Origin: an uncultured Verrucomicrobiota bacterium
GTDB lineage: Bacteria > Verrucomicrobiota > Verrucomicrobiia > Limisphaerales > CAIQOK01
Length of the DNA stretch: 64,000 nucleotides
Direction of reading: 5' to 3'
Assembly: GCA_903873415.1 (NCBI GenBank)
Contig: CAIQOK010000021.1
Location: forward strand, 1 to 64,000
The notes under the pieces were generated by a model. The model was not told the origin of the DNA and did no database searches. It saw only the letters and a list, made by a program, of their open reading frames with translations. This document shows positions 8,875-39,184 of this stretch, piece after piece. The translations under genes were made by a program, and so were the position numbers. How positions within the stretch are numbered: the stretch's first letter is position 1; every line of letters begins with the position of its first letter.

Positions 8875-8933
8875 AGTTCCTTATGCATAAAACCCAATTC
8901 CATTCACACATCGAACACCGTCCACATCCCTTC

Positions 8934-9404: not shown

Positions 9405-9438
9405 GCCGGCTGGGAGCGGATTGGCACCGCCGACCGAA

Positions 9439-9467
9439 GCGCGGCTGCCTCCCAAGATCAGCCGCGC
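9439..9467. terminator. hairpin between convergent genes
   Basis: A 9-bp perfect stem, GCGCGGCTG / CAGCCGCGC, with an 11-nt loop in the 74-bp gap between two genes that end facing each other. It lacks a T run on either side, so it may be a bidirectional terminator without a classic U tract. Confidence 0.45.
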
Positions 9468-9478
9468 GCCGCCCCCGT

Positions 9479-13774: not shown

Positions 13775-13911
13775 GATGTTTTGAAGGGAGAAAGATAGGT
13801 GACAGCCCAGCCCAAATCCAATAGTTTTCTCCCACTCAATTTTAGAGGCTGCATGGAGGATCTCCGGGGCCACGAATTCCTGATTAACAAAACACCAAAA
13901 ATCGTTTTAAC

Positions 13912-21577: not shown

Positions 21578-21662
21578 AAAAGCATTTGGCAAGAACCCTC
21601 TCCCATCCTGATTTCGAAAAAGCTGCCGCTGAGTCACGTTAAACAGAATATTGAACACTCCC

Positions 21663-23138
21663 ATGAACCCGATTCACGAACGACTTCAACAGATCAGCCG
21701 CCGCCATTTCTTCAAGAGCACGGGCCTGGCCGCCGGACGCATCGCCTTGGCGGGAATGATGCTTCCCGAACTGGCTCAGGCTGCGGCAAAAATCAAACCG
21801 GGCCTCCGTTCGCATCCGGCCCTGCCGGGGCTCCCCCACTTCGCCCCAAAAGCCAAGCGCCTGATCTACCTTTTCATGAACGGCGGACCGTCCCAGATGG
21901 ATCTCTTGGATTACAAGCCGAGCCTTTCCAAGATTTATGACACAGACCTGCCCGAGTCGATCCGCAATGGCCAGCGCCTGACGACGATGACCAGCGGACA
22001 GACCCGCTTCCCTATCGCGCCGTCGAAATACAATTTCAAGCAATACGGCAAATCGGGCGCCTGGTTCAGCGAACTCCTGCCACACACGGCTAAAGTCGCC
22101 GACGATATCGCCGTGATCAGATCGGTCCATACCGAAGCGATCAACCACGATCCGGCCGTCACGTTCATCCAGACCGGCAACCAGATTCCGGGCAAGCCCA
22201 GCCTCGGCTCATGGCTTAGCTATGGTCTGGGCAGCGAGTGCGACAATCTCCCCGCCTTTGTCGTCATGACTCCCAGCTGGACCGCAAAACGCGATGCCCA
22301 GGCACTCTACCAGCGCCTCTGGGAGGCGGGATTCCTGCCAACCAAGCACGCCGGCGTATCCCTGCGGTCCAAGGGCGATTCTGTTCTGTATCTCAACAAC
22401 CCGCCTGGAGTGAGTCCGGACGGACGACGCGACATGCTCGATGCGCTGGCAAAGATTAATGCCGCAGAATATCAGAGGATTGGCGATCCGGAGATCAACA
22501 CCCGCATTGCCCAATACGAAATGGCGTTCCGCATGCAGACCTCTGTGCCTGATCTGACCAGCATCAAGAATGAATCCAAGGCCACGCTCGATCTTTACGG
22601 ACCGGAGGTGGTGATTCCCGGGACCTTCGCCCACAGCGCCCTGATGGCTCGCCGGCTGGCCGAGCGCGGTGTCCGCTGCATCGAACTGTTTCATCGCGAA
22701 TGGGACCATCACGGCGATCTCCAACGCGATCTGCCCCTGCAATGCCGCGATGTGGACCAGGCCTGCTACGGCCTGATCACTGATTTGAAAAACCGCGGCA
22801 TGCTGGATGAAACATTGGTGGTATGGGGTGGCGAGTTCGGACGCACCGTCTATTGCCAGGGCGCACTGAGCCGGGAAAGCTACGGTCGCGACCATCATCC
22901 CCGCTGCTTCACCATGTGGATGGCCGGAGGCGGCATCAAGGGCGGCACCGTCTACGGCGAAACGGATGATTTCAGCTATAACATTGTCAAAGATCCGGTC
23001 CACATCCGCGACCTCAACGCCACCATCCTGCACTGCCTTGGCATCAACCACAGCCAGCTGACTTATAAATTCCAAGGTCTCGATCAACGCCTGACCGGCG
23101 TCGAGGAGGCAAACCCGGTGCAGGGAATCCTTGTCTAG
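21663..23138 (+). CDS. Tat-exported DUF1501 protein, first copy
   Basis: A 491-aa protein of the DUF1501 family, which belongs to the alkaline phosphatase/sulfatase fold superfamily. The N-terminus has a twin-arginine signal ([10 protein letters not shown]), so it is probably folded in the cytoplasm around a cofactor or metal and exported. Visible family features are [16 protein letters not shown], the WGGEFGR segment and [17 protein letters not shown] near the C-terminus. I chose ATG 21663 over the TTG at 21651 because it gives the usual Tat leader. It follows the PSD1 gene by 85 bp and precedes the second PSD1 gene by 27 bp. Enzymatic activity is not established for the family. Confidence 0.9.
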
Positions 23139-23165
23139 AGTCGGCTAACCCGACAAATTCAAACC

Positions 23166-26100
23166 ATGAAACTCCGGGTTGTGAATCAGCAGCTAAAGCG
23201 TTTGGCTCCGGCCGACTTTATCTCGGGCGTTTTGAAGCGCCGGATTTTCGCACCCGGCGCCTGCTCCCTCATTCTTCTGGCGGCTGGTGTGGCATCAGCG
23301 GCAACAGCCAAGGTCGATTTCAGCAGCGAGGTCCGCCCTATTCTGGCAGGACATTGTTTCAAATGCCATGGCCCCGACGAGGTGGCTCGTAAAGCCAAGC
23401 TCCGTCTGGATATCAGGGAGGAAGCGCTCAAGCCGGCTAAGTCGGGGGAGGTCGCTATTTTTCCCGGAAAGATGGACAAGAGCGAACTGGTTGCCCGTGT
23501 TTCCAGCACTAATGAGGATGACATCATGCCCCCGCCGGCAATGAAAAAACCTCTCACTCCCGAGGAGAAAAATGTTTTGAAACGCTGGATCGCCCAAGGC
23601 GCCGAATACAAACCGCACTGGGCTTTTGTCGCCCCCAAGCAGTCCCAGCTCCCCAAGGTCCATGACAAGAGCTGGCCAAAAAGCCCCGTGGATCATTTTG
23701 TTCTGGCTCGATTGGAGAAAGAAGGCCTGAAACCATCAGCTCCGGCTGACAAATACACTCTGGTCCGCCGCGTCTATCTGGATCTCATCGGACTGCCCCC
23801 CACTCCGATGCAGGCCGATACTTTTGTAAAGGACGCCTCGCCCAAGGCCTATGAGCAACTGGTAGACGGCTTGTTGGATTCGCCTCACTACGGTGAACGA
23901 TGGGCTCGACGCTGGCTCGACCTGGCCCGCTATGCGGACACCAACGGCTATGAGAAGGACCGCGAGCGCTCCATCTGGCCCTGGCGCGACTGGGTGATCA
24001 ACGCTCTTAACCGGGATCTGCCTTTCAACCAATTCACGGTCGAACAGCTGGCCGGCGACCTGCTCCCCGGCGCAACGCAGGACCAGATCATTGCCACAGG
24101 CCTGCATCGCAACACCATGCTCAACGAGGAGGGCGGCATTGATCCTCTGGAATATCGCTTCTATGCAATGGTGGACCGGGTGCATGTAACCTCCACGGCA
24201 TGGTTAGGCCTGACGATGGCCTGCGCCCAATGCCACACCCATAAATACGATCCCATCCAGCACACCGAGTATTACCGGTTCATGGCCTGCCTGAACAATG
24301 CCGACGAACCGCGCATGGACGTGGTAAACCCTCAGATTGGCGAAAAGCGCAAAGAACTCCTGACGCGGATCGCAGCTCTCGAATCCGAACTGCCCAACAA
24401 ATTCCCCATGGAATCCGGGGTGACCTGGCAGATACCAGGAGCGGTCGAGTTTGAATCCAAGAACGGCTCCGAGGCCCGGTTCCTGGATGACGGCTCCGTG
24501 CGCATCTCCGGCACCGGACCGGAAACGGATGTTTACACCATCAAGTTCACTCCGGCGGCACAGCACCTGACCCACCTCCAGCTTGAGGCCCTGCCGGACG
24601 ACGGCGTTGTCAACGGCGGCCCCGGTCGCAGCGGGTCGGGTAATTTCGTTCTCAGTGAAGTGAAACTTGAAGTCGTGGATGCCGGTTCGGAAAGGGCGGT
24701 GCGCAAGGCCAGGTTTTCCAAAGCAGAAGCCGATTTCTCCCAGGATGGATTCAAGGTCGAATCAGCCATCGATGGGAAAACAAATACCGGCTGGGGTATC
24801 GCCGGATCGCCCGGAAGCTCGAAGCATCGCCATGCCATTTTCACACTGGCCGAACCGCTGGAACTCAAGGAAACATCCACTGTCGTGGTCCGTCTGATTC
24901 AAAGTTACGGGTCTCATCACACGCTGGGCCGCTTCCGTTTAAGCCTCGGACGTCAATTGGCAGACCCCGCCTTTACCGAGCAGCATCGGCACGAACTGCG
25001 CGATCAGAAGTGCGTAGAATGGCTGGAAAAACACTTGCCCTCGGCCAACAACTGGACCCAACTCCGCCCTGCCACCGCCACCGCCACATCGCCAACACTG
25101 ACAGTCCAGGAGGACAATTCCATCTTCGCCGGCGGGGACTTCACCAAGAACGACACCTACACCCTCAAATTCCGCAATCTGCCTTCGGGTCTGAAAGCGG
25201 TGCGGCTGGAGATGATGCCTGATGACCGCCTGCCCAATAATGGCCCTGGATCCGTCAGCTACGAAGGACCGGAAGGGGACTTCTGGCTGTCCACCTTCAA
25301 GGTGAAGGCCGACGCCCGGTCTATCACCCTTACCAATGCCTCGGAAAGTTTTGCCAACGGTGGAAACAATGCGGCCAAGGCCATCGACGACGATCTGCAG
25401 AGCGGCTGGTCCGTCAATGGCGGACAGGGCAAGACACACAATGCGGTGTTCCAATTCACCGAAGGCGTCACCAGCACCAATGAACTGCAGCTCGATCTGA
25501 TCTGTGAAAAATACCATGCCGCCGGGCTGGGCAGGTTCAGGATTTGGGTGAGTACCGACGACCACGCCAAAGCATCCGCCTTGAGCAATGAGGCTGTCGC
25601 CATTCTCGCCGGCCATAAGGATGCGGCCTGGTTGCGCGGGCTTTTCACCAACACGAATAGCGCCGCCGATCAACGCGCTGTTTTGCTGAATGAGTTTGTC
25701 CGGCTCTCCCCCGCATTCTCCGGTCCGCGCCGGGGGATTGAAAACCTGCGCGGGCAATTGCCCAAATTCCCCACCACTCTCGTGATGCAGGAGCGGCCGG
25801 CCGGACACGAGCGGACCACCTTCCGCCATAATCGCGGCGACTTCCTCCAGCCAAAGGAGGCGGTGACAGCGGGTGTGCCGTCATTCCTGCCGCCCCTGCC
25901 CGAAAACGCTCCGAAGAACCGGCTGGCTCTCGCTCAGTGGCTCGTCTCCGGAGCCAACCCCCTCACGGGCCGCGTGGTGATGAATCGCCACTGGGAAGCG
26001 CTCTTCGGGCGCGGCCTTGTCCGGACCACCGAGGATTTCGGATTCCAAGGGGAGCTCCCTTCCCATCCGGAGTTGCTGGACTGGCTGGCTGTGGAGTTTG

Positions 26101-26840
26101 TGAAACAGGGCTGGTCGCAGAAAAAAATGCTCAAGCTCCTCGTCATGAGTGCCACCTACCAACAATCCAGCGTCGTCACACCGGAGCTGCTGGAGCGCGA
26201 TCCGCTCAACATCCTTTTGACCCGTGGCCCGCGGTTGAGGCTCGAGGCGGAGATGGTGCGAGACTCGGCCTTGCTCGCCAGCGGACTGCTCTCCGAAAAA
26301 CTGGGCGGCCCCAGCGTCTACCCACCGCAACCTTCCGGAGTTACTTCCGAAGGCACCTACGGCGCATTGAACTGGGCGACCAGCACCGGTCCCGACCGCT
26401 ATCGGCGAGGCCTCTACACTTTTGCCAAACGCACGGCACCCTACGCCATGACGGCCACATTCGATGGCCCCAGCGGCGAGGCCTGCCTGGCCCGCCGCGA
26501 TCGCTCCAATACCCCCCTCCAAGCTCTGAGCCTGCTCAATGACACCGTCTTCATGGAATGCGCCCGGGCATTGGGCCAGGCAGCCACCGGAACAGGCGGC
26601 GGCGACGAAGCCCGCGTTGAATTCATCTTCCGCAGATGCCTGACCCGTCCGCCCTCGGCCGAGGAGCAGACAAGGCTGCTTCGTTTTTATCAGACACAAC
26701 TTGCCCGCTTTGCAAGCGGAGAATTGAAAGCGTCAGAAATACTCGATGCCGGAACCGGCGACCGCCTTAATGAGCAGGCCGCTTGGACCACCTTGGCCCG
26801 TATCCTGTTGAACCTCGACGAAACCGTCACCAAGAGCTGA
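23166..26840 (+). CDS. PSCyt1/DUF1549/DUF1553 (PSD1) protein with duplicated insert, second copy
   Basis: A 1224-aa relative of the gene at 18422. It has the haem motif CFKCH at 64-68, DUF1549 (about 170-375; LIGLPPTPMQADTF, ARRWLDLARYAD) and DUF1553 (about 905-1215; PSHPELLDWLAVEF, TYQQSS). It is longer because the middle carries two similar domains of roughly 190-200 aa: one near 405-610 (TWQIPGAVEFESKNG, ALPDDGVVNGGPG, TNTGWGIAG) and one near 620-815 (MMPDDRLPNNGPG, QSGWSVNGG). Their alternating 'PDD...NGGPG' and 'DG/DD...SGW' patterns resemble discoidin-like carbohydrate-binding folds and look like an internal tandem duplication. The next gene, a DUF1501 protein, begins 6 bp after the stop. 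Confidence 0.88.
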   Translation: MKLRVVNQQLKRLAPADFISGVLKRRIFAPGACSLILLAAGVASAATAKVDFSSEVRPILAGHCFKCHGPDEVARKAKLRLDIREEALKPAKSGEVAIFPGKMDKSELVARVSSTNEDDIMPPPAMKKPLTPEEKNVLKRWIAQGAEYKPHWAFVAPKQSQLPKVHDKSWPKSPVDHFVLARLEKEGLKPSAPADKYTLVRRVYLDLIGLPPTPMQADTFVKDASPKAYEQLVDGLLDSPHYGERWARRWLDLARYADTNGYEKDRERSIWPWRDWVINALNRDLPFNQFTVEQLAGDLLPGATQDQIIATGLHRNTMLNEEGGIDPLEYRFYAMVDRVHVTSTAWLGLTMACAQCHTHKYDPIQHTEYYRFMACLNNADEPRMDVVNPQIGEKRKELLTRIAALESELPNKFPMESGVTWQIPGAVEFESKNGSEARFLDDGSVRISGTGPETDVYTIKFTPAAQHLTHLQLEALPDDGVVNGGPGRSGSGNFVLSEVKLEVVDAGSERAVRKARFSKAEADFSQDGFKVESAIDGKTNTGWGIAGSPGSSKHRHAIFTLAEPLELKETSTVVVRLIQSYGSHHTLGRFRLSLGRQLADPAFTEQHRHELRDQKCVEWLEKHLPSANNWTQLRPATATATSPTLTVQEDNSIFAGGDFTKNDTYTLKFRNLPSGLKAVRLEMMPDDRLPNNGPGSVSYEGPEGDFWLSTFKVKADARSITLTNASESFANGGNNAAKAIDDDLQSGWSVNGGQGKTHNAVFQFTEGVTSTNELQLDLICEKYHAAGLGRFRIWVSTDDHAKASALSNEAVAILAGHKDAAWLRGLFTNTNSAADQRAVLLNEFVRLSPAFSGPRRGIENLRGQLPKFPTTLVMQERPAGHERTTFRHNRGDFLQPKEAVTAGVPSFLPPLPENAPKNRLALAQWLVSGANPLTGRVVMNRHWEALFGRGLVRTTEDFGFQGELPSHPELLDWLAVEFVKQGWSQKKMLKLLVMSATYQQSSVVTPELLERDPLNILLTRGPRLRLEAEMVRDSALLASGLLSEKLGGPSVYPPQPSGVTSEGTYGALNWATSTGPDRYRRGLYTFAKRTAPYAMTATFDGPSGEACLARRDRSNTPLQALSLLNDTVFMECARALGQAATGTGGGDEARVEFIFRRCLTRPPSAEEQTRLLRFYQTQLARFASGELKASEILDAGTGDRLNEQAAWTTLARILLNLDETVTKS

Positions 26841-26846
26841 AATTTT

Positions 26847-28307
26847 ATGAGCTGTCACGACCATCTCTATGCCTGCAGCACGCCGCGCCTGAATTCGCGC
26901 CGCTGGTTTTTAAAGGAATGCGGACTCGGACTTGGCAAAGTGGCCCTGGCCTCAATGCTCACCGATGCCTTCAGCTCGAAACTCTTGGCGACGCCAGCCT
27001 CGGCCAGTGAGGCGCTCAAGCCGCGCGCCCCTCATTTTCCCGGCAAGGCCAAGCACGTCATTCACCTTTTCATGGCCGGCGCCCCCAGCCAACTCGACCT
27101 GTTTGATTACAAGCCGGAGCTGGCCAAGCTCCAAGGCAAACCTTTACCGCCCTCCGTCATCGCCGGCCAGCGCTACGCATTCATCCGCTCCGACGCCGCA
27201 GTGCTGGGACCACAGTTCAAATTCGGCCGACACGGAAAGTCCGGAGCCGAAATCTCCGAGGCCCTTCCGCATCTTGCGGGTGTGGTGGACGACATCTGCA
27301 TGATCAAGTCGATGAAGACGGAGCAGTTCAACCATGCGCCTGGCCAGATTTTCCTCAACACAGGTTTTGCCCAGCCCGGCCGCCCCAGTCTTGGTTCCTG
27401 GGCCCTCTACGGACTGGGCAGCGAATCCCAGGATCTCCCCGCCTATGTTGTCATGTCCACCGGCGGTGGTGTCAGCGGTGGCTCGGCCAACTGGTCCAGT
27501 GGTTTCATGCCCTCTCTCTACGCCGGCGTCCGCTTCCGAAACCAAGGCGATCCCATCCTCGACGTCACCAGTCCCAAGGGCGTGGATCCCAAGCTTCAGC
27601 GGGCATCGCTGGATTTGATTGAAGAGATGAATCATGCGCGGCTGGGGATCGTAGGGGATCCGGAAATTGAATCGCGCATCGCCTCCTACGAAATGGCCTA
27701 TCGCCTCCAGAGTTCCGCGCCGGATCTTATGGATCTCAAAAAGGAGAGCAAGGAGACGCTCGACATGTATGGCTGCGATCCCGACAAGCCGAGTTTCGCC
27801 CGGGCCTGCCTGCTGGCCCGGCGGATGATCGAACGCGGCGTCCGTTTCGTGAACATCTACCACGAAGGCTGGGACGCGCACTCCGATGTGGTTGGAAATC
27901 TGAAGAGTAATTGCGCCGCCACCGACAAGGCCTCCGCCGCTTTGGTGAAGGATCTCAAGCAACGCGGGTTGCTCGATGAAACCCTGGTGATCTGGGGCGG
28001 GGAATTCGGACGCACGCCGATGGTGGAGAGCAATGTGGCTCTGGGCCGCAGTCTGGGCCGGGATCATCATCCGGCTGCCTTCACCATGTGGATGGCGGGC
28101 GGCGGAATCAAAGCCGGACTCACCCACGGCGCCACGGATGAGATGGGCTTCCACGTCGTTCAGGACGAGGTTCAGATCTACGATTTACAGGCAACAATCC
28201 TTCATTGTCTGGGCTTTGATCATGAACGATTGACCTACACTTATCAGGGAAGGCAGTTCCGCCTTACGGATGTGCACGGCAAGGTGGTCAAAGCAATACT
28301 GGCCTGA
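26847..28307 (+). CDS. Tat-exported DUF1501 protein, second copy
   Basis: A 486-aa paralogue of the gene at 21663, with the same order of segments: a twin-arginine signal [36 protein letters not shown] and [17 protein letters not shown]. The leader before the arginine pair is longer than usual (17 residues) and includes two cysteines. It starts 6 bp after the second PSD1 gene, so the two are surely cotranscribed. Having two separate PSD1-DUF1501 pairs in tandem suggests two substrates or two forms of one substrate. Confidence 0.9.
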   Translation: MSCHDHLYACSTPRLNSRRWFLKECGLGLGKVALASMLTDAFSSKLLATPASASEALKPRAPHFPGKAKHVIHLFMAGAPSQLDLFDYKPELAKLQGKPLPPSVIAGQRYAFIRSDAAVLGPQFKFGRHGKSGAEISEALPHLAGVVDDICMIKSMKTEQFNHAPGQIFLNTGFAQPGRPSLGSWALYGLGSESQDLPAYVVMSTGGGVSGGSANWSSGFMPSLYAGVRFRNQGDPILDVTSPKGVDPKLQRASLDLIEEMNHARLGIVGDPEIESRIASYEMAYRLQSSAPDLMDLKKESKETLDMYGCDPDKPSFARACLLARRMIERGVRFVNIYHEGWDAHSDVVGNLKSNCAATDKASAALVKDLKQRGLLDETLVIWGGEFGRTPMVESNVALGRSLGRDHHPAAFTMWMAGGGIKAGLTHGATDEMGFHVVQDEVQIYDLQATILHCLGFDHERLTYTYQGRQFRLTDVHGKVVKAILA

Positions 28308-28522: not shown

Positions 28523-30493
28523 ATGAAGAACGCATTTGGAAATCCTCGCATCCGTCATTTCTATTTTTCAGGGCCGATTGCACGGTTCACCCTGCTGACT
28601 CTGTTAGCGGGAGCCCAATGCCCTGTGCTGGCTGCCCCTGCAGCCGGATCAGAAAAAATCACGCATTCCACCTCCAGCAATGGCCGGGAGGAGTTGAAGC
28701 CCGTGCCTGCGGCTCAAATCAAAAAACGGATCCTCATCGGTGAGGCTGCGGGGCTTTTGCCCGATACGGGCAAAGACTGCACCCAGGCTTTCCAAGCCGC
28801 ACTCGAAATTCTGCGCCAGCATCCAGGCACAACTCTGAAGCTCAACGCCGGCGCCTATCACTTTTGGCCACTCCACGCCGCAAAACGCGAGCATTACCAA
28901 TCCAACACCGATGCCACTGTTCCCAAGGCCTACGCGCTCCTGCTGGAAGGCCAGATGAACACCGTCATCGACGGCGGTGGTGCCACGCTGCTCTTCCATG
29001 GTCCCATGTCGGCAATTGGAGTGGACGGGTGCGCGAATATCAAGATCCGGAACCTGAATATCACCACGCCTCGGCTCTTCACATCACAGGGCAAGGTGGT
29101 GGACGCCGGCGCAGACTGGCAGGTTCTGCAGATTGATCAGGACCGTTTTCCCTATGTCGTCGAAGACGGTGTTTTCAAAACCATGTTGGAAGGAGTGAAG
29201 TCCAAAATTTGGGGCCGGATGGAATACGACACAGCTGATGGCCGTTTTTCCCATGGGGATCAAGGAGGGGTTTCACGCGCCGAAGAACTCAAGCCGGGGC
29301 TCGTCAAGTTGTGGTCCTCGCACGATGTGGCCAAAGCAGGTAACATTCTCGTCCTCCGCCACCACGAACGCACTCATGCCGGAGTCTTTATTCTTGGTTC
29401 GCAGAATGTGACCCTTGAAAACGTCGAGGTCTGGGGCACCGCCGGCTTGGGAATTCTTTGCCAGCAGAGCCGCAAGCTGACCTTCCTTCACACCCATGTC
29501 CGCCCGCAGCCAGACACCGGCCTGGTCTGCGGACCGAAAGACGACGGTTATCATTTCTCCGGATGCAGCGGTCAGATCACTCTGGACGCCTGCATCGTCG
29601 CCGGCACCGCCGATGATCCAATCAATGTTCATGGCACCAGTCTGCCGGTGGTGGAGCAGACGGGACCGGCCACCGTCACAGCCCGCTTCGGCCATCCCCA
29701 GTCGATCGGACAGTCGCTCTGGGCTCGACCCGGCAACCGGATTTCCGTGATTGATCGGGAAACGCTGCTGCCTTCGCAGGAAAATTGCGTGAAGTCATTT
29801 CGGTTGGTGGATCCTCAGACCGTGGAAATTGAATTCGCCAAATCTTTCCTTGAGCCGGTGACTCAGGCGCACGCTCTGGAAAATCTCTCGGACACCCCGG
29901 ACGTGACCATTCGCGGATGCGCCTTCAGCAACGGCCGGGCCCGCGGCATCCTGTGTTCCACCCCGGGCAAGGTGCTCATCGAAAACAACACTTTCATCAT
30001 CCACGGCGCGGCAATCCTAATCCCAGGAGATGCCAACGGCTGGTATGAGTCCGGCGCGGTCAACGATGTTATGATCCGCGGAAACCGGTTCGATAACTGT
30101 CTGGTGGCGGACAGCCAGTTCTCCGACGGAGTGATTGCGATCTGGCCGGAGATTCACCGGCACGTGGCGGGCCACCCGTTCCACCGCAACATACGGATCG
30201 AAAACAACATCTTCCGGGTGTTCGACCGGCCGATACTTTACGCCTCGTCTGTGAACGGTCTGTCCTTTACCGGCAACACCGTGGTGCGCACGGAAACCTT
30301 CACGCCGTGGCATCGCAACTCCAATGCGATCACGCTGAAGAATTGCCTAGCTGTAAAAATCAGAGGCAATCGGGTTCAGGGTGAATTACTTGACCGAAAA
30401 ATCCAGTGTGAATCCACTCCGGCCGCCGAGATCCAGATTGGAGTAACCGAGCCTTTTTTTCTGGCGGCAAAACAAACTCCTGTGGTCCGATAA
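28523..30493 (+). CDS. GH110-like exported alpha-1,3-galactosidase
   Basis: A 656-aa protein with a signal peptide (about residues 1-38) and a right-handed parallel beta-helix built from repeats such as NIKIRNLNITTPR, NVTLENVEVWG and KVLIENNTFIIHG. The segments PKDDGYHFSG (Asp340-Asp341) and ADDPINVHG (Asp364-Asp365) match the pattern I recall for GH110 catalytic aspartates, including the spacing of 23 between the third-from-last and next aspartate. GH110 enzymes remove terminal alpha-1,3-linked galactose (for example from blood group B-type glycans or algal galactans) with inversion. Length fits the family (about 600 aa). It heads a cluster of four glycan-active genes. A different beta-helix glycosidase or lyase is possible. 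Confidence 0.65.
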   Translation: MKNAFGNPRIRHFYFSGPIARFTLLTLLAGAQCPVLAAPAAGSEKITHSTSSNGREELKPVPAAQIKKRILIGEAAGLLPDTGKDCTQAFQAALEILRQHPGTTLKLNAGAYHFWPLHAAKREHYQSNTDATVPKAYALLLEGQMNTVIDGGGATLLFHGPMSAIGVDGCANIKIRNLNITTPRLFTSQGKVVDAGADWQVLQIDQDRFPYVVEDGVFKTMLEGVKSKIWGRMEYDTADGRFSHGDQGGVSRAEELKPGLVKLWSSHDVAKAGNILVLRHHERTHAGVFILGSQNVTLENVEVWGTAGLGILCQQSRKLTFLHTHVRPQPDTGLVCGPKDDGYHFSGCSGQITLDACIVAGTADDPINVHGTSLPVVEQTGPATVTARFGHPQSIGQSLWARPGNRISVIDRETLLPSQENCVKSFRLVDPQTVEIEFAKSFLEPVTQAHALENLSDTPDVTIRGCAFSNGRARGILCSTPGKVLIENNTFIIHGAAILIPGDANGWYESGAVNDVMIRGNRFDNCLVADSQFSDGVIAIWPEIHRHVAGHPFHRNIRIENNIFRVFDRPILYASSVNGLSFTGNTVVRTETFTPWHRNSNAITLKNCLAVKIRGNRVQGELLDRKIQCESTPAAEIQIGVTEPFFLAAKQTPVVR

Positions 30494-30522
30494 ATGCCTG
30501 TTAAACAAACGCCCTCCCTACG

Positions 30523-33180
30523 ATGAACATCCGGAACTCGACTATCATCCTCGCCGCTGCAATCTTGTTCTCCCCGCTGGCGCAGGGCAGTGACACGATG
30601 CTCACCCTCATGGATACGGCCCAAGTCCAATCCATCGCGGCGCGCCATGTGGGCGAAACCGCCCTGGTGTTCACGGAATCGAGGGGGTTTCCGATCCGGC
30701 ATTCGAACGGATTACCCGCCCGCTGGAGCGGGCAGGCTCAATCCCAAAAAATCAGTTTCGCGGGCGTCGCACAACCGGGTGAGTTTTTTGTCTTCCAGCT
30801 CGGCATTTACGCGCTCACCAACCTCGGCCCAATCTCCCTGACCTTCAGCGATCTCAAGGGTGACTCCGGCATGCTGCCCGCCGGCGCATTCAACTGCCTG
30901 AGCCTCGGTGGACTCAATTTTCAGGGGCAGCCATTCACGAAGGGAATCCACATGGAAGCGGGCCAACTACAGGCGCTCTGGGTGGGCGTGACTATTCCCG
31001 TCAAAGCCAAGGGCCGGTTTGTCGGCAACATGCAGCTGGATCCGGGACGGGATAAAAAAATCCCCGTCGAACTCACGCTGCAGATCGAAGGCCCCGCACT
31101 CGCCGATCAAGGCGATTCAAGTGCCGGCAAGCTCTCCCGCCTGCGCTGGCTCAATTCCAACACCGGCACTGAACCGACCCTGACCAAGCCGTTCACCGCG
31201 GTGCGCACCGGCAGCCGGGTTATAAAAGTGCTGGGGCGCGAGCTATTGCTTGGGGAAAACGGGTTGCCCAAACAAATCCTCAGCCATTTTTCCCCTGCCA
31301 ATACTCGGATCGAACCCCAAGCCCGCCCCTTGCTCGCCCGACCCGCAGCTTTCCTGGTTGAAACCTCCACAGGAAAACAGGCTTGGCAGGACAACTTCGG
31401 CTCCCTGAAACACAACACTCTGAAAGCAGACTGGACAGCGACCAGCACCACAGACGGGCTGAGAACCGAAACCTGCGGACATCTTGATTACACCGGTGCC
31501 GGCGAAATCCGCATCCGCCTGATCGCGGATAGAGACCTCGACTTGAAGGACGTCGGGCTGGAGGTGCCCTTTCGCGAAGACTCAGCCCGATATTTCATGG
31601 GCCTCAATCATCCGGGCGGGCTTCGCCCCGAATCAGTGCAATGGAAGTGGGATGTCCAAAAGCACCAGGACTGTTTTTGGCTGGGCGCTCTGAACGCCGG
31701 CTTGATGCTGCGGCTTAGGGATGGCGATTACCTGCGCCCGCCGGTGAACATCTACTATGCATTCCGCCCGCTGGCATTGCCCTCGTCTTGGGGCAACGAG
31801 GGCCGCGGTGGCGTGGAGCTGCGATCAGAGGCCGATTCCTGCGTTTTGGCCCGGGCCTACAGTGGTCCGCGTCGCCTCAAGCAGGGTCAACACTTGGACT
31901 TCACCTTCGAACTTTACCTCACGCCCTTCCGCACTCTGGATACGGAGAAACAGTGGTCTGTGCGCTTCATTCAACCGTCCCCGAGCCACCTGCCCGACCG
32001 GCTGGATCAGGCGGTTGCCTCGGCTGATTCCAGACACGGCCCCAATGTCATCAACGTCCATCAAGGCACCTACTACAGCCCCTACATCAACTATCCCTAC
32101 AGTGACGCATCGGCTTCTGCCTTTCATGATCTTGTCCAACGCGCCCATGCAAAAGGGGTAAAGGTCCGCGTTTATTACACCACCCGCGAGATCACCCAGA
32201 ACATGCCGGAACTCTTTCCGCTCCACTCGCTCAATGGCGAAATCATCCTGCCCGGCCCCGGCAAAGAGGCCCGCACTCTGATCCATCCCGGCGGACCCCA
32301 TCCCTGGCTGACTGAAAACCTGATCTCGGATTTTATTCCCGCCTGGGTGGACCACGTGGGAGGCAAATATGCGGAGCTGGATCTTTCGGTGATCACCACC
32401 CCCGACTCGCGCTGGAACAATTTCTATCTGGAAGGGTTGCGGTGGCTGGCAGACAAGTCGGATTTCGACGGCGTGTACATCGACGATACCGCGCTGGATG
32501 CAGGGAGCCTCAGGCGGGCCCGGCGGATTCTCGACACCCGGCCCGGCCGTTACATGGATCTTCACACATGGAATCATTTCAACAGCCACGCCGGTTTCGC
32601 CAACAACCTGACAATTTACATGGAGCTCCTGCCCTACCTCGATCGCCTCTGGCTTGGCGAAGGTTTCAACGCGGACACCGCCCCGGCAGATTTCTGGTTG
32701 GTGGAAATGAGCGGCCTGCCCTTTGGCCTTATGAGCGAAATGCTGGAGGAGGCAAACCCTTGGCGCGGAATGGTCTTCGGCGAAACCTCGCGACTGGGCT
32801 GGTCAGGGGATCCGCGGGGACTCTGGAAAGTCTGGGATGAGTTTGCAATTCAAGGCACCGAGTTTTTGCCCTCCTTCGCTCCCGGCTGTCCCGTCGCCAC
32901 AGGCGAAAAAAACATCCTTGCCACAGTGTATCGCAAGAAGGGCCGCTCCTTCATCGCTCTGGCAAGCTGGGCGGAAAAAGAAACCGCCGTCAAACTCCGC
33001 ATTAACTGGAGCGCCTTGGGGCTGGATCCCGCACGGGCCACCCTTTACGCCCCAGCCATCGCAGGCATGCAACCCGAACGATTGTGGCAACCCGCAGAGG
33101 AAATCCCGATTAAGGCCAAGCAAGGCTGGTTTCTGGTGCTCGACCAACAGCCGCGCAAACCAACAATAATCTCCAAATGA
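30523..33180 (+). CDS. DUF6067-like glycoside hydrolase-domain protein
   Basis: An 885-aa exported protein. The first 23 residues are a signal peptide, the N-terminal half (30-480) is beta-rich, and the C-terminal half reads like a TIM barrel: HQGTYYSPYINYPY, GVKVRVYYTTREITQ, DGVYIDDTAL and RLWLGEGFN. The acidic pair in DGVYIDD (about residue 655) is a reasonable catalytic site. The layout matches uncharacterised DUF6067 proteins near GH123/GH-N clans; I cannot name the substrate. It lies 30 bp after the GH110-like gene and 68 bp before the GH101-like gene in the same direction. Confidence 0.6.
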   Translation: MNIRNSTIILAAAILFSPLAQGSDTMLTLMDTAQVQSIAARHVGETALVFTESRGFPIRHSNGLPARWSGQAQSQKISFAGVAQPGEFFVFQLGIYALTNLGPISLTFSDLKGDSGMLPAGAFNCLSLGGLNFQGQPFTKGIHMEAGQLQALWVGVTIPVKAKGRFVGNMQLDPGRDKKIPVELTLQIEGPALADQGDSSAGKLSRLRWLNSNTGTEPTLTKPFTAVRTGSRVIKVLGRELLLGENGLPKQILSHFSPANTRIEPQARPLLARPAAFLVETSTGKQAWQDNFGSLKHNTLKADWTATSTTDGLRTETCGHLDYTGAGEIRIRLIADRDLDLKDVGLEVPFREDSARYFMGLNHPGGLRPESVQWKWDVQKHQDCFWLGALNAGLMLRLRDGDYLRPPVNIYYAFRPLALPSSWGNEGRGGVELRSEADSCVLARAYSGPRRLKQGQHLDFTFELYLTPFRTLDTEKQWSVRFIQPSPSHLPDRLDQAVASADSRHGPNVINVHQGTYYSPYINYPYSDASASAFHDLVQRAHAKGVKVRVYYTTREITQNMPELFPLHSLNGEIILPGPGKEARTLIHPGGPHPWLTENLISDFIPAWVDHVGGKYAELDLSVITTPDSRWNNFYLEGLRWLADKSDFDGVYIDDTALDAGSLRRARRILDTRPGRYMDLHTWNHFNSHAGFANNLTIYMELLPYLDRLWLGEGFNADTAPADFWLVEMSGLPFGLMSEMLEEANPWRGMVFGETSRLGWSGDPRGLWKVWDEFAIQGTEFLPSFAPGCPVATGEKNILATVYRKKGRSFIALASWAEKETAVKLRINWSALGLDPARATLYAPAIAGMQPERLWQPAEEIPIKAKQGWFLVLDQQPRKPTIISK

Positions 33181-33247
33181 ACTCAACCCCGGCCCGACTG
33201 GTCCAACCCGATTTTCTATCGTCTAATCACATCGATCAAACAACTCC

Positions 33248-34990
33248 ATGAACTGCGTCCATCTTTTTCTCTTCGCCGTAGCCCTCACCTTACCACCACG
33301 CCGCATCCAAGCCGAACCTGTTTCGGCCAAAACGCTCCAACGCATCTCCATCGATGTCGCCCCACGCATCCTTACCCCGGCACGCACAACCAACACCACG
33401 GGCCGATTGATTCTAACAGGCTTCTACTCGGACGGCTCGAGCCATCCTATCGCCCCCGCCAAAGCCGTAATCACCGCCCGCACCAAGGCCGCCAGCGGCA
33501 ATGTGCAGGTCGTCAGCCTTCACGGTAATAAAGTGATCCCCGAGGAGGGTGGAGTGGCCACCATCGAGGCCAGCCTGAGCGATGCCGGCAGAACTTTCAC
33601 CGCCGCCACACAGGTTGTCGTGGAACCCTATTACCGGGATTATCACCAGACACTGGTCTTGAAATTATTTCTAGGAATGGAGGGGCAACCGGTGGAACGG
33701 CTTGCAAAGGAACCCATGTTCCTAAAACCGCACGACGTCTTTCACACCTTCGAGCAGGCTCTGGACATCATCCGCAAGACCGACAATGTGACCCGAGGCA
33801 TCCCAAAGATCATCTACCTCGTTGGCTGGCAGAAGGGCGGACACGATCACGGATATCCAGACTGGTCCGAGGTCAATCCGCTTTTGAAGCGGGCTCAGGA
33901 TGCCGCTCCGCTGGACAGTTTGCGCTGGCTCATCCGCGAAGGCCGGAAGTTCAACACCACAGTCAGCCTGCACATCAACATGGTGGACGCCTATCAACAG
34001 AGCCCGCTGTGGGATGAGTATGTGGCCAAGGACTGCTTCGCCAGAGATGAAGGCGGAAAGTTATTGGTGGGCGGAATCCAGATGATAGGCGAGGACATGT
34101 ACAACGTGGTTTATCCCAAGGAATGGGCGGCAGGACTCGCCCAGCGCCGCATCGACGGATTGATCCGGATGATTCCTGAACTCAAGGACGGACATACCAT
34201 CCACATCGACGTCTTCATCGCCAACCGCGACGGGGGCAGGCCGATCAGCCCCTGGCACTTGAAACCCGAGAATGGCGGATTGACCCCGGACAAATATGTC
34301 GAGACCCAACGCAAGATTTTCCATTACTGGCGCGACCGTGGTTTCGATGTCACAGGTGAGGGCACTGGCTGGGCGCATCCGCCCGGCGAACACTTTGTGG
34401 GCTTGCAGGCGATGTCCTGGTGGTATTCCTGGAACCCCATGGAAATTCCCGAATGCCTCGGCGCTCGCGGGCGGACGACCCGCGAAGGGGAGGGTGACTT
34501 TCGCTTTGGCGAAAGCATGCATGGCGAGACCCTCTGGCTGGCCGAGGGCAGCAGCATGCCAGGTTTCCTGGGATCCTTCTGCCGCACCGCTCTTCCGTGG
34601 CACTACCTAAGCCGCTTGGAGCGGAAGAAGTTCGAAAACGATACGCTTTTCTACAGCAATGGAGTGGTCGCCCGCAACGAATCTGGAAAACGCATCATCC
34701 GCAAAGGGGATTTCGTCTTGCGCGAAGACGATGATCTCTTTGTTCCCGCCCTTTGGCACAAACAGGAGATCTTCGCATACAGCAAGCTGGGCTATACGAG
34801 CAAGTCGTGGCAGTTGCCGGATGACTGGGGCAAGGTTAAGAATGTTGACCTTTATCGGATTACTCTGGACGGCTGCGCGCCTTTGCAAAAACGCGTTCCG
34901 GTCTCCGATGGCAAGCTTCTCTTCTCGTTGGAAAAAGATGAGGCTGTTTCCATTCTGCCCGCAGGCTCCAAGCTTCCCGAAAAGAAATGA
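33248..34990 (+). CDS. GH101-like endo-alpha-N-acetylgalactosaminidase
   Basis: A 580-aa exported protein. After a signal peptide (to about residue 22) there is a short beta domain (30-130) and a TIM-barrel region: KIIYLVGWQKGGHDHGYPDW, TVSLHINMVDAYQ, IHIDVFIANRDGG and VTGEGTGWAHPPG. Asp321 (IHIDVF) and Glu371 (GEGTGW) are the likely nucleophile and acid/base. These segments match the catalytic core of GH101/GH129 enzymes, which release core 1 Gal-GalNAc or GalNAc from mucin-type O-glycans. It is much shorter than the classic multidomain GH101 proteins, having only the core. Its stop overlaps the start of the next gene (ATGA). Confidence 0.6.
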   Translation: MNCVHLFLFAVALTLPPRRIQAEPVSAKTLQRISIDVAPRILTPARTTNTTGRLILTGFYSDGSSHPIAPAKAVITARTKAASGNVQVVSLHGNKVIPEEGGVATIEASLSDAGRTFTAATQVVVEPYYRDYHQTLVLKLFLGMEGQPVERLAKEPMFLKPHDVFHTFEQALDIIRKTDNVTRGIPKIIYLVGWQKGGHDHGYPDWSEVNPLLKRAQDAAPLDSLRWLIREGRKFNTTVSLHINMVDAYQQSPLWDEYVAKDCFARDEGGKLLVGGIQMIGEDMYNVVYPKEWAAGLAQRRIDGLIRMIPELKDGHTIHIDVFIANRDGGRPISPWHLKPENGGLTPDKYVETQRKIFHYWRDRGFDVTGEGTGWAHPPGEHFVGLQAMSWWYSWNPMEIPECLGARGRTTREGEGDFRFGESMHGETLWLAEGSSMPGFLGSFCRTALPWHYLSRLERKKFENDTLFYSNGVVARNESGKRIIRKGDFVLREDDDLFVPALWHKQEIFAYSKLGYTSKSWQLPDDWGKVKNVDLYRITLDGCAPLQKRVPVSDGKLLFSLEKDEAVSILPAGSKLPEKK

Positions 34991-37308
34991 AAGACCGAAA
35001 AGGATTAGAGACCCTGCAGAAGATGAATCGGGGGCGTTTTCTGAAAGCCAACCTTGGCGCAATGATCGGAGCGTCGTTGTTGGTCGCGCAGGCGGCATCT
35101 CCGAATTGGGATCTGAAGCATGGTGGAAAACTCAACCTCGCCCAGAGCGTGGCAGCCGCCGATTTTCTAACATCCGAGTCCTTGGCCATGCCTCGGCGGC
35201 AGATCGCGCTCAACGGCACCGATCTCCGCCTGTTCAACGCCCGTAGTTCGTTGACATTCCGGGAACGCACCGTCACCGGCATCGGTGAGTTATTCATAGC
35301 GCCTCGGGCGGCCAGCCGGGTGCCCATCTCTTTTAATCTATCCTTCCGCGAGGAGAGCCTTGGTGCGCTGATCGAGGATAACCAGGATGAATGGGGCGAA
35401 GGCACGCTAAATGTCTGGCAGCATTGGAATCCGGCCAACAAGGAACTGGGAATCTACAAGGGTTGGGGCTATGCGCTAATCCTGCCGTCCCAGCGAGCCA
35501 CGTGGGCACCGGACGCGTATACCCGCCGCGGGACCTTTCACCATTACCTCGGCAAGGATCTGATCTCCTTTGGTGTAATATCCCGGACCTTGCCGGCGGC
35601 GGATGTGGACGGGGCATACGAGGAACTCACTATCACCAATCGCACCGACCGACCCCTATCGCTCACCCTCATCCCCGACCAACCTCGCGGCGATAAAAAA
35701 CGCTCCGCCTGCTTCACTCGGCGGGAGGGTGAATTCGCGCTTCAGGTATTGTGCGACCTCGGTCCGTCACAAGGTGATGGTTGGCGGTTGGAAATCCCCT
35801 CACAAGGGCAGCGCATCATCCACGTTGCCTTACTGGTCGCGGACGCGGGTGCCGCCGAGCCTGCGGGCCATTATTCATCGGATCTGGCCGCTCGCTTCGC
35901 ATCCAGCCGCCAGACAACCTTGGATTTACTGCACCGAGCTGCAACTCAACTGCCCCAAATTGAAACTGGCAACCCGCGTCTAAATGAGTTTTATCAACGC
36001 TCCATCCTCAGCCTCCTCCAGTGCCGACGCGAACGGGCTGATTCGCCAATACGTCCCTTCTACGATATCGGGTTCGGTGACGGCAATTCCGTGACGTGGG
36101 ACGTGTCGTTCTCCACGGGGCTGCTTACCATGTTCGCTCCGGACGAGGCCAAACACATGCTCAGCGCCTTCCTGTCTGCCGGAGGCGTCTTCAACTCCAC
36201 CTGGCTAAGCGCAAAGGGGGGAGGCGGCGGTTTCTACATGCAGTCTCCCTTTGCTCTGCTTGATATCGCCCAGCGCCACATGCGCCAGACCGGTAATCGT
36301 GCGCTGCTTGACGAGAAGGCGGGGACGAAGACCGTCTTCGAGCACTTCCGGGACGGCGCGCAAACCTTGCTGGACTCTTACGTGAAGGATGGGTTGATCG
36401 ACGCCGGCGAGGGAACTGGCAAATTGCTCGAGATCCGCACCAGCGGTTACGAGCACACCGTCGCCGCAATCAACGGTATGGCTGTCGACTATCTTGACCA
36501 GGTCACGACCTGGTGCCGGGAGCGCGGCGATATAAAGTCCAAAGCCTTTCAGGCTGCCGCTCGGCGCCTGCACGATGAAATCGAGCGGCGGCTGTGGGAC
36601 GAGGGTTCCGGTTGGTACATTAATCTGTATCCAGACGGCAGACGGCACCGGGTGATGAGCTACCACGTCTTCGATCTGCTGCGCCAGCCATCCGTGCCTG
36701 CTGAGCATCGACGACGACTTGCGGAGCACATTGTCTCCGGTGAATTCCTGGGGCCCTACGGCATGTATTCCATCGCCTTGAGCGACGAGGAACATTGGGA
36801 CATGCAGGATTGCGACTGGGGTGGCGGGGGGCAGTATGTGGGGCAGCCTTTGCGGATTGCGGAATCACTCTACCGCATGGAGGATCCAAAGCGTGGTTGG
36901 GACGTGCTCTCACGCTGTCTACTCTGGGTGGATCGATTCCCCTATTTTCCCCAAACCATCTATACTGAAGAACTGGCAATACAGGACCACGAACGCGGCT
37001 GGTCATTACAGATCTCCGCAGGTGCCGGTGCCGAGGCCGTCATCTACGGCGTGTTTGGGCTTATGCCGCAGGATGACGGCAATCTTGCGGTAAATCCCCA
37101 CTACGAGAAATCGCTCGGAACAGCGACCCTGAGAGCGTATCGATTTCGGGAACATAGTTATGACCTCTGCATGGATGCCAAGAGTTTTAAGATTTTCCGT
37201 GATGGCGTCCAATTGAGTAAAGAGTGTCATGGCCACTGTATTACCATCACGGAAAATGGAAAAATCCGGCGGAATCTGACCGGTGCGGATCTGAAAGCGG
37301 GAAAATAG
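34987..37308 (+). CDS. (alpha/alpha)6-barrel glycosidase-like protein
   Basis: A 773-aa protein starting in a 4-bp overlap with the GH101-like gene, so it is translationally coupled. The N-terminal 300 residues are beta-rich; residues 310-700 form a helical barrel typical of six-hairpin glycosidases: SILSLLQCRRER, DGNSVTWDVSFSTG, YEHTVAAINGMAVDYL, AARRLHDEIERRLWDEGSGW and QDCDWGGGGQYVGQP. Acidic residues in WDVSFS and DEGSGW are candidate catalytic sites. It resembles GH63/GH37-type barrels but I cannot assign a family. The first 18 residues are polar before a hydrophobic patch (LGAMIGASLLVAQAA), so either a Tat-like/Sec signal or a later start (ATG 35023) is possible. Confidence 0.6.
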   Translation: MKDRKGLETLQKMNRGRFLKANLGAMIGASLLVAQAASPNWDLKHGGKLNLAQSVAAADFLTSESLAMPRRQIALNGTDLRLFNARSSLTFRERTVTGIGELFIAPRAASRVPISFNLSFREESLGALIEDNQDEWGEGTLNVWQHWNPANKELGIYKGWGYALILPSQRATWAPDAYTRRGTFHHYLGKDLISFGVISRTLPAADVDGAYEELTITNRTDRPLSLTLIPDQPRGDKKRSACFTRREGEFALQVLCDLGPSQGDGWRLEIPSQGQRIIHVALLVADAGAAEPAGHYSSDLAARFASSRQTTLDLLHRAATQLPQIETGNPRLNEFYQRSILSLLQCRRERADSPIRPFYDIGFGDGNSVTWDVSFSTGLLTMFAPDEAKHMLSAFLSAGGVFNSTWLSAKGGGGGFYMQSPFALLDIAQRHMRQTGNRALLDEKAGTKTVFEHFRDGAQTLLDSYVKDGLIDAGEGTGKLLEIRTSGYEHTVAAINGMAVDYLDQVTTWCRERGDIKSKAFQAAARRLHDEIERRLWDEGSGWYINLYPDGRRHRVMSYHVFDLLRQPSVPAEHRRRLAEHIVSGEFLGPYGMYSIALSDEEHWDMQDCDWGGGGQYVGQPLRIAESLYRMEDPKRGWDVLSRCLLWVDRFPYFPQTIYTEELAIQDHERGWSLQISAGAGAEAVIYGVFGLMPQDDGNLAVNPHYEKSLGTATLRAYRFREHSYDLCMDAKSFKIFRDGVQLSKECHGHCITITENGKIRRNLTGADLKAGK

Positions 37309-37354
37309 AAGGACGGCTTTCGTCTGGTTGCGACCGGATAAAATATAAGTGCAA

Positions 37355-39184
37355 ATGAAACTTCGAAACCAGTGGCCCGGCTTTTTTTGGTCAATAGTAC
37401 TAACATCGGCTTTTCTTGCGCTCACCGGTTTTGCAAGAGATGGTGGTCAATTTATCACTCGTCTCAAATCCGGAAAGCCCCAAACCATAGTTACTTATGG
37501 CACCAGCCTGACAGCAGGCGCTGCTTGGGTCGGCCAGCTACAAACTGTTTTGCAAAGCAAATACCCAGGGTTGGCGACAGTGATTAACAGCGGACAAGGC
37601 GCAATGTGGTCCAAGTGGGGCGTTGATCATCTCCACGAGCGCGTGCTGCAAAATAAACCCGACGCGGTGTTTATCGAGTTTGCGATCAACGATGGGTATC
37701 TCGATTACCAGACCACCGTCGAACAGGGGCGCAAAAATCTGGAAAACATGATCCAGCGGATTCTGCAAATGAACGCCGGCTGCGAAATCATCTTGATGAC
37801 CATGAACCCGCCCATCGGTGTGCATCTGGAGCGGCGCCCAAAGGTTGCCGAGTATTACCAGATGTATAGGAATGTGGCCCATGAGATGAAGCTGATGCTG
37901 ATCGACCACTATCGGAACTGGGGAACAATTCTAGAAGCCGACGAGAGACTTTATGCCAGGTATGTCCCGGATGGCATTCATCCCAACGCCGAAGGCTGTG
38001 AAAAGGTAATAACTCCGGCAATCATAGAAGCATTGGGATTGGCAACAGACGCGGACTTCCGTCCCTCAATCCGGCGCATTGAACTGGATCGTGAAAAAGT
38101 CTGTGCGCACAAAAACTTGCGAATCCGCATCGACTGGCAGGCCAACGCGGCCACGCGCCAGACTTACCAACTGACGCTCAACCTGGTCGGGATTGGGAGG
38201 CCGCCGGATTTCAGCACAAACATCGTGCTCCAACCTCCCACCACCCAGTGGAAAGCGGGCACTATCGTGAGCGGCAAAGATTTCGTCATCACCATTCCCG
38301 GCACTCTTTCGCCCGGCTGGCGTCGCATGTTATGGAGCCTCACTCAGGCCAGCCTCCCCGGTCAGGCGCTTCCGCTCGACAACGCCGACCGCCACGAACG
38401 CAATTCGCAGTATTGCTTCGGTGAGATCGAAATCCTGCCGGCCAACTCCCAAGCGCCCGGCGAAACTCTCGTCCGCCTTCCTACCAGTGATCCGGCAAAA
38501 CCGGAGCGCCCAAACGAGGAGTGGCGCATGCGGCACGCCGAGCGGGTGGCTGATGTGAAATCCCACGCAGACCGGTTAGATGTTTTGTTCATCGGCGATT
38601 CCATCACTGGCGGATGGCGCGACATTGGCAAGGCGGTTTGGGAAAAGCAATTTGTTCCATTGCACGCGGTGAACATCGGCATCGCCGGCAGTCAGACGCA
38701 ACACCTCCTATGGCAGTTCGAAAACGGCGCAATTGATGGGATCAATCCGAAAGTGGCTGTGCTAATGATCGGGGTGAACCATTTTCTGGCATCGCCGTCG
38801 CATACCACTGCCGACATCGCTCGCGGCATTTCGGCTGTTGTTGCGAAGTTGCGCGAGAAACTGCCCCAAACCCAAATTCTGTTGCTCGGCACCTTTCCCA
38901 AGGACAGGGCAGCAACCTCGACGGATCGTGTGAAAATCAAAGAACTTAATGCTATGATTGCCAGACTCGACGACGGAAAGAAGATCCGGTTTAATGACCT
39001 AACACTGAAGTTTCTGGCCACAGATGGCTCGCTTCCGCCCGACATTTCCCCGGATGGAGTGCATCTCAGCCCCGCTGGCTACGCAATCTGGGCTGACGCG
39101 CTCAGACCTGTTATCCGCGAAATAACGGCGCAGGACTCATCCCGGAACGTGCGCACAGATCTACCCGTCAAGTCGTCGCAATAG
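37355..39184 (+). CDS. tandem SGNH/GDSL esterase
   Basis: A 609-aa exported protein with two SGNH-hydrolase domains. The first (about 40-230) has YGTSLTAG (nucleophile Ser), EFAINDGY and DGIHPNAEG. A linker of about 160 residues follows. The second (about 405-590) has FIGDSITGGW, GIAGSQTQH, IGVNHF and DGVHLSPAGY. Both catalytic Ser and Asp-His sets are intact, unlike the PVC-type protein at 9479. Such enzymes remove acetyl or other ester groups from sugars. Starts are possible at GTG 37349 or ATG 37355; I prefer ATG. Placed at the end of the glycosidase run, it may deacetylate the glycan before or during its breakdown. Confidence 0.8.
   Translation: MKLRNQWPGFFWSIVLTSAFLALTGFARDGGQFITRLKSGKPQTIVTYGTSLTAGAAWVGQLQTVLQSKYPGLATVINSGQGAMWSKWGVDHLHERVLQNKPDAVFIEFAINDGYLDYQTTVEQGRKNLENMIQRILQMNAGCEIILMTMNPPIGVHLERRPKVAEYYQMYRNVAHEMKLMLIDHYRNWGTILEADERLYARYVPDGIHPNAEGCEKVITPAIIEALGLATDADFRPSIRRIELDREKVCAHKNLRIRIDWQANAATRQTYQLTLNLVGIGRPPDFSTNIVLQPPTTQWKAGTIVSGKDFVITIPGTLSPGWRRMLWSLTQASLPGQALPLDNADRHERNSQYCFGEIEILPANSQAPGETLVRLPTSDPAKPERPNEEWRMRHAERVADVKSHADRLDVLFIGDSITGGWRDIGKAVWEKQFVPLHAVNIGIAGSQTQHLLWQFENGAIDGINPKVAVLMIGVNHFLASPSHTTADIARGISAVVAKLREKLPQTQILLLGTFPKDRAATSTDRVKIKELNAMIARLDDGKKIRFNDLTLKFLATDGSLPPDISPDGVHLSPAGYAIWADALRPVIREITAQDSSRNVRTDLPVKSSQ

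Follow-up and report, generated by a model that had tools for sequence, protein, structure and literature searches.

What polymer would be taken apart by five tandem glycan-active genes in an uncultured Verrucomicrobiota bacterium? The genes lie at 28523-39184 on the + strand of contig CAIQOK010000021.1, whose first 64,000 nucleotides (the window) were analysed here. An earlier note, made from the sequence alone, had suggested blood-group-B-like mucin O-glycans or an unfamiliar algal or plant polymer as the target. Because a glycoside hydrolase (GH) of family GH110, a GH101-like enzyme and an SGNH esterase stand together at this locus, and GH106, GH95, GH29, GH27 and CE15 enzymes occur around the relatives of these genes, we propose that five exported enzymes dismantle an acylated, alpha-1,3-galactose-capped, fucose- and rhamnose-rich heteropolysaccharide of algal, cyanobacterial or plant origin. 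We give this proposal about an even chance of being correct. The five genes are listed below with the basis of each assignment.

28523-30493, + strand: gene 1, GH110 alpha-1,3-galactosidase with a beta-helix, putatively exported, 656 residues (Pfam, Protein Data Bank (PDB) sequence search, residues)
30523-33180, + strand: gene 2, PF19543 protein (Pfam label GH123_N; earlier DUF6067), 885 residues (Pfam)
33248-34990, + strand: gene 3, compact GH101-like enzyme, 580 residues (Pfam, PDB sequence search, fold, profile)
34987-37308, + strand: gene 4, predicted (alpha/alpha)6-barrel glycosidase with an N-terminal beta-sandwich, without family assignment, 773 residues (model and fold)
37349-39184, + strand: gene 5, tandem SGNH esterase with a GTG start, 611 residues (Pfam)

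All five open reading frames announced by the earlier note are present in tandem on the + strand. The GH110 and GH101 kinship that it named, and whose absence would have counted against it, was recovered by Pfam and by PDB sequence matches, its DUF6067-like protein (gene 2) is PF19543, and the barrel fold of gene 4 and the tandem esterase of gene 5 were found as well. Successive gaps between the genes are 29, 67, -4 and 40 bases, the -4 gap being the ATGA overlap of gene 3 and gene 4 that the note had seen at 34987-34990, and the five genes probably form one transcription unit. Promoter and terminator counts for the locus did not exceed those of shuffled sequences and were uninformative. A hydropathy scan, made without a signal-peptide predictor, found a hydrophobic N-terminal stretch in each of the five proteins, which suggests that all five are exported. 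The window belongs to contig C21 of a 3.8-megabase assembly of 189 contigs that is 97.8% complete.

Gene 1 matches the Pfam GLAA-B beta-barrel domains I (E 4.9e-9) and II (6.3e-7) and a beta-helix, and in the PDB sequence search it matched GH110 structures over nearly its full length at E 1.9e-81 and below (1.9e-81 to 9i4f). In the available text of the study of PdGH110B, Asp321, Asp344 and Asp345 are catalytic and Arg451 and Arg453 bind galactose (PMC7939477). Alignment with PdGH110B (7jw4) places D321/D344/D345 on D341 (codon 29543-29545), D364 and D365 (codons 29612-29617) of gene 1, and the +1 and -1 arginines Arg451/Arg453 on R472/R474. Because the GH110 match covers nearly the full length and the catalytic aspartates and the arginines are conserved, the sequence-based assignment of gene 1 as an inverting exo-alpha-1,3-galactosidase is well supported. 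Unlike PdGH110B, gene 1 has Tyr343 (DGYHF) in place of Thr323 in the D-A-T-H segment. Gene 1 may or may not accept a fucose or sulfate branch, as its +1' loop, which sets fucose versus sulfate tolerance, cannot be aligned to PdGH110B.

Gene 3 has the following parts and putative catalytic residues.

Residues ~30-125: N-terminal beta domain
Residues ~126-455: catalytic barrel
Residues ~459-571: C-terminal beta-sandwich
34208-34210, + strand: putative nucleophile D321
34358-34360, + strand: putative acid/base E371

Pfam Glyco_hydro_101 (PF12905) matches gene 3 at E 8e-11 (42.3 bits against a cut-off of 25, profile positions 38-178 of 272). The PDB sequence search returned GH101 structures only (EngBF and SpGH101, E 5e-9 to 6e-7), and a 26-row profile of the gene 3 clade retrieved the same structures. 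For an AlphaFold2 model of gene 3, the best fold was again GH101 (SpGH101, EngBF; 3ecq), with Z 22.4, a root-mean-square deviation (rmsd) of 4.4 and 381 aligned residues, followed by GH129 NagBb (Z 18.0, rmsd 4.4, 298 aligned) and the carrageenan-type ZgGH129 (Z 15.4, rmsd 4.8, 294 aligned); the next family reached Z 12.7. Although gene 3 is similar in size to the GH129 enzymes, which offer exo-acting precedents, it is 12-14% identical to them in structural alignments, and the likeness is one of fold only, a Pfam scan at E 0.1 giving no GH129 match. By sequence and modelled fold, gene 3 appears to be nearer to GH101 than to GH129.

In SpGH101, D764 is the nucleophile and E796 the acid/base, and PMC10949244 names six substrate contacts. 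Five of the six are kept in gene 3, where D658/H694/N696/D764/E796 correspond to D200/H242/N244/D321/E371, and these five residues are invariant in all 26 rows of alignment A1 (the window and 25 of the 29 loci described below; L016, L018, L022 and L023 were omitted as near-duplicates, truncated or frame-split). The sixth contact, H661, is Y203 in gene 3 (Tyr in 25 rows, Phe in one). D658, H661, H694 and N696 were mapped by residue spacing in the EngBF alignment. An hhalign alignment of the gene 3 clade with canonical GH101 proteins from other Verrucomicrobiota genomes (Prob 99.6, E 5e-24) paired D321 with D640 and E371 with E666, both invariant. Gene 3 thus shares with GH101 the fold, the nucleophile, the acid/base, three of the four other contacts and the C-terminal beta-sandwich segment. 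In contrast to the GH101 enzymes of more than 1100 residues, to which it is ~17-23% identical, gene 3 aligns to residues 513-1051 of SpGH101 only and ends there. The K1156/E1253/D1254 triad that holds the second (-2) galactose of the T-antigen, according to the available text of PMC12550630, falls outside this range, and in the hhalign alignment nothing in gene 3 matches the WxW segment of canonical GH101. Because five of six contacts are kept and both the -2 triad region and the WxW segment are absent, gene 3 appears, from sequence and model, to keep the GH101 chemistry but to lack the region to which GH101 owes its endo action as a core-1 O-glycanase.

When genomes were scanned at one per species, 29 contigs proved to encode proteins 59-76% identical to gene 3; their titles assign them to Verrucomicrobia/Kiritimatiellaeota, Hydrogenedentes, Planctomycetota and Chthonomonas. 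Lac Pavin is named in six of the 29 record titles and a gut sample in none; the other sample codes are probably those of lake or reservoir surveys. The clade is sporadic, with scores above 1000 bits in 2 of 337 genomes of the phylum and above 900 bits in 7 of 146 genomes of the order. In a tree of 30 rows it is tight, with a long stem to the nearest outgroup, and the rows group mostly by phylum. With three phylum changes against a minimum of two, rampant recent transfer of gene 3 between phyla is unsupported; an older spread between phyla may have occurred. A second compact GH101-like branch occurs in other Verrucomicrobiota (L048-L051, L090), with proteins of ~540 residues that are 37-70% identical among themselves and carry a GHDSKYP motif.

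Partners of gene 3 were counted by tblastn at 1e-10 over 31 distinct contigs (the 29 together with L076 and L103; L082, L100, L101, L102 and L104 were omitted as duplicates of L008, L007, L002, L010 and L026), and the counts are lower bounds, many of the contigs being short and ending near gene 3. The commonest partner was an SGNH2-like domain, adjacent or fused on 7 of 31 contigs, followed by GH95 or GH95-like proteins (5), GH29 (4), CE15 (4), GH27 (3), GH106 (2), SASA (2) and GH110 (1). The GH106b label of this count was an artefact of a query containing a GH101-like part and was not used; the GH27 label also caught SGNH sequence, and GH27 was counted by Pfam only (L005, L009 and L023). Gene 3 and SGNH share one open frame in L023, L024, L030 (Pfam) and L103, and in L007 the two genes overlap by four bases. 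In L023, a frame of 1532 residues (8854-13449) joins a GH101-like domain, SGNH, NPCBM and a GH27 alpha-galactosidase, with a second GH101-like copy adjacent at 7053-8718. The linker-like domain of gene 5 (residues 236-375) is found upstream of the GH101-like domain in L103 (3192-6194) and L023 (8917-9315) at 27-28% identity; therefore, the same parts appear to have been shuffled. A polysaccharide degradation cluster is of a known kind, and within the literature searched the compact GH101-like and esterase pair is new. A bolder proposal, which we put forward tentatively and with the odds somewhat against it, is that the gene 3 clade represents a new subfamily or family of glycosidases. Its members would cleave an alpha-galactoside, not GalNAc-Ser/Thr (GalNAc, N-acetylgalactosamine), in an acylated aquatic polysaccharide, and would need for this a dedicated SGNH deacylase, to which they are fused in several lineages.

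GH110 and gene 3 also meet in other genomes. In G453, of the same order and another family, one same-strand run contains GH110 (72%), GH106, a GH95-like gene, GH29 and the GH101-like gene (66%); the gene after GH110 is GH106 in G431 and encodes a GH95-type protein in G386. Among the 146 genomes of the order, 6 have a strong GH110 and 7 the tight gene 3 clade, and the two coincide in 4, more often than expected (hypergeometric p 2.8e-5). When the genome of the window is set aside, 3 are shared of 5 GH110 and 6 gene 3 genomes (p 3.9e-4), and with all weak matches included, 4 are shared of 12 and 10 (p 0.004). The window's genome itself has GH106 on two contigs and 6 GH29, 22 sulfatase and 4 GH20 matches. 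As far as the available texts go, freshwater Verrucomicrobia are rich in GH29, GH78, GH95 and GH106 (PMC5615132) and marine ones are fucose and rhamnose specialists (PMC8857213). With their clusters, ours shares the GH29, GH95 and GH106 company, in relatives; in contrast to them, it adds GH110 and the GH101-like/SGNH pair and has no sulfatase. In these available texts 'gh110' does not occur in PMC8857213, nor 'gh110' or 'gh101' in PMC5615132. A literature search, mostly at title level, found no GH110 cluster with GH101/GH129/Planctomycetes or with GH106/GH29/GH95/Verrucomicrobiota.

Gene 5 matches PF13472 in two SGNH stretches (5.7e-48), and its translation carries the GDS, G, N and DxxH blocks; the SGNH blocks are defined by Ser, Gly, Asn and His. 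Its parts are as follows.

Residues ~50-220: SGNH1
Residues 236-375: linker region
Residues ~380-600: SGNH2
38486-39148, + strand: SGNH2 domain, PAF-acetylhydrolase-like

Gene 2 matches PF19543 at E 2.7e-260. GH123 is defined by an adjacent catalytic Asp-Glu pair and substrate-assisted catalysis in the available text of PMC11087588. The Pfam scan found no DUF4091 match in gene 2. No adjacent Asp-Glu pair is conserved at residues 505-560, 610-690 or 700-760 among seven homologues, and the list of invariant residues of the alignment contains none either. Because both the DUF4091 match and the conserved pair are lacking, gene 2 is not read as GH123, and the Pfam name GH123_N should not, on this sequence evidence, be taken as membership. 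What gene 2 shares with GH123 and the beta-N-acetylgalactosaminidases is PF19543 and a marginal profile match to the PDB entry 8k2j (E 0.0015), in the N-terminal domain only; as a single sequence it gave no credible PDB match. A kinship of PF19543 with GH101 was ruled out by hhalign (Prob 1.2). Gene 2 is a probable TIM-barrel glycosidase with the invariant acids D620, E637, D654 and E713, of which D654 and E713 (also E637 and D620) are candidate catalytic residues. Its close homologues at six other loci have neighbours that differ from those in the window, and the term DUF6067 was not found in the literature searched.

In the model of gene 4, a beta-sandwich forms the N-terminal part and is joined to an (alpha/alpha)6 barrel (predicted local distance difference test (pLDDT) score 70.6). 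Pfam gave sub-threshold (alpha/alpha)6 families only (MGH1-like at E 4.9e-6 and 26.8 bits against a cut-off of 27, GH94 and trehalase), with no above-cut-off match to the GH94, GH65, GH78 or GH95 profiles. The invariant acids E482, D600, D608 and D610 are its candidate catalytic residues, and homologues occur in 12 of 337 genomes of the phylum (1e-10). Distant homologues, ~22-27% identical and sometimes two per genome, lie in L035-L041 and L044 (families f20 and f36). Of the alignments used, A4 includes a distant member (L107), and A5 is weakened by one wrong-frame row (L057).

The fold of gene 4 bears on the idea that GH110 and gene 3 take alpha-galactose off the side chains or the serine of a plant hydroxyproline-rich glycoprotein or arabinogalactan-protein, which we consider unlikely. 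Foldseek listed GH121 HypBA2 (6m5a) second at E 2.6e-16, and BT_1020 reached Z 25.4, while GH27, GH43-like, GH95, GH106, GH29 and CE15-type neighbours would suit arabinogalactan or pectin-like side chains. However, GH94, PGGHG, GH78, BT_1020, GH121 and others all lie at about Z 20-27 or similar E values, so that assignment by fold fails, GH94, GH65, GH78, GH121 and others not being separable; a family that does not appear in the fold lists may also be the right one. The barrel is also without linkage to the other four genes elsewhere.

For the acylated heteropolysaccharide, we infer the substrate, the exo action, the order of steps and the roles of genes 2 and 4 as follows. GH110, with its catalytic residues in place, would remove the terminal alpha-galactose by inversion, and the SGNH esterase of gene 5 would strip O-acyl groups. 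Gene 3 would then act as a retaining enzyme, through D321 and E371, and cut off an alpha-linked sugar of galacto configuration (galactose or GalNAc), and it is more likely to be exo-acting, recognising a single sugar, than an endo-acting core-1 O-glycanase. The PF19543 protein and the barrel would take off further side-chain sugars as local additions, in place of which relatives would use GH106, GH95, GH29, GH27 or GH43.

Several points weigh against this proposal. GH110 and gene 3 lie less than 10 kilobases apart in two genomes only (the window and G453), and the window cluster itself has neither a rhamnosidase nor a fucosidase. At the threshold used, SGNH is missing from 24, GH95 from 26, GH29 from 27 and GH110 from 30 of the 31 contigs, partly from short contigs. 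The co-occurrence cut-offs were chosen after the scores had been seen, and the p-values ignore kinship and genome size; G431 and G453 are of the same family, and the genomes that share both genes are mostly large. The model of gene 3 is of middling quality (mean pLDDT 70.8), and an N-acetyl preference of gene 3 may persist. Finally, PF19543 and the barrel have no conserved linkage to GH110 or gene 3 elsewhere. At eight control loci (six PF19543, two barrel), none matched GH106, GH95, GH27, CE15, SASA or SGNH references and two matched GH29 weakly.

The five genes could then be a loose pile of unrelated enzymes in a genome rich in carbohydrate-active enzymes, without a common substrate, and the unlinked homologues of genes 2 and 4 and the many gene 3 contigs without GH110 would agree with this. 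We nevertheless hold it improbable: the spacing is tight and ATGA-coupled, GH110 and gene 3 stand in one run in G453, and gene 3 is fused or adjacent to SGNH2. A single conserved unit of all five genes was rejected, as GH110, gene 3 and SGNH recur pairwise and genes 2 and 4 were not found beside them elsewhere.

The blood-group-B or mucin-type O-glycan target of the earlier note, in which GH110 takes alpha-galactose and gene 3 frees the O-glycan core from protein, is disfavoured, and we rate it as very unlikely. The best matches of gene 1 include enzymes of the blood-group-active type (PpaGal, 9i4f; alpha-1,3-galactosidase B, 8pvs), gene 3 keeps the five SpGH101 contacts, the genome has GH20, GH29 and sulfatase matches, and the title of one contig with a gene 3 relative (L008) names Akkermansia muciniphila. 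The GH20 and GH29 matches, however, do not discriminate mucin from other readings. Moreover, the -2 galactose triad lies beyond the aligned range of gene 3, gene 3 has neither the WxW segment nor H661, the genome has no match to the M60 mucinase/peptidase, and no record title names a gut sample. The relatives of gene 3 accompany rhamnosidases, fucosidases and the glucuronoyl-esterase family. Rhamnose is not known as a mucin sugar. The other target of the earlier note, an algal or plant polymer of unfamiliar kind, could be right. A sulfated red-algal galactan (carrageenan, agar or porphyran), on which gene 3 would act like ZgGH129 on 3,6-anhydro-D-galactose, is highly improbable, for although carrageenan pathways include GH110 and GH129 enzymes (available text of PMC7939477; titles of 5opq and 8rzk), ZgGH129 is the third fold group and the genome has its sulfatases, contig C21 has no sulfatase match, gene 3 is closer to GH101, and no GH16 or GH167-type enzyme is among the Pfam matches of the scanned neighbours.

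Other genes of the window surround the locus.

4718-8062, + strand: hybrid-type sensor kinase with Reg_prop/Y_Y_Y domains
8155-8874, + strand: LuxR-type response regulator
9479-13873, - strand: protein of 1464 residues with an SGNH esterase domain, DUF7133, HEAT repeats and a cytochrome c domain
18422-28307, + strand: two tandem pairs, in each a PSCyt1-DUF1549-DUF1553 protein and then a DUF1501 protein (Pfam), directly upstream

The sensor kinase and the LuxR-type regulator may together sense glycans for the locus. Relatives of the DUF7133-cytochrome protein lie close to gene 3 relatives in L014, L015 and L018, and PSCyt1-DUF1549-DUF1553/DUF1501-like pairs in L008 and L022. PSCyt domains close to glycosidases are described for freshwater Verrucomicrobia in the available text of PMC5615132.

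If the proposed acylated heteropolysaccharide is indeed the target, a branch of the GH101/GH129 group would move out of animal glycans, with gene fusions connecting it to an esterase and to enzymes that remove galactose, fucose and rhamnose. It would also give the PF19543 and gene 4 barrel families a first substrate to try, and would provide a concrete route to a polysaccharide contested by aquatic bacteria of several phyla.

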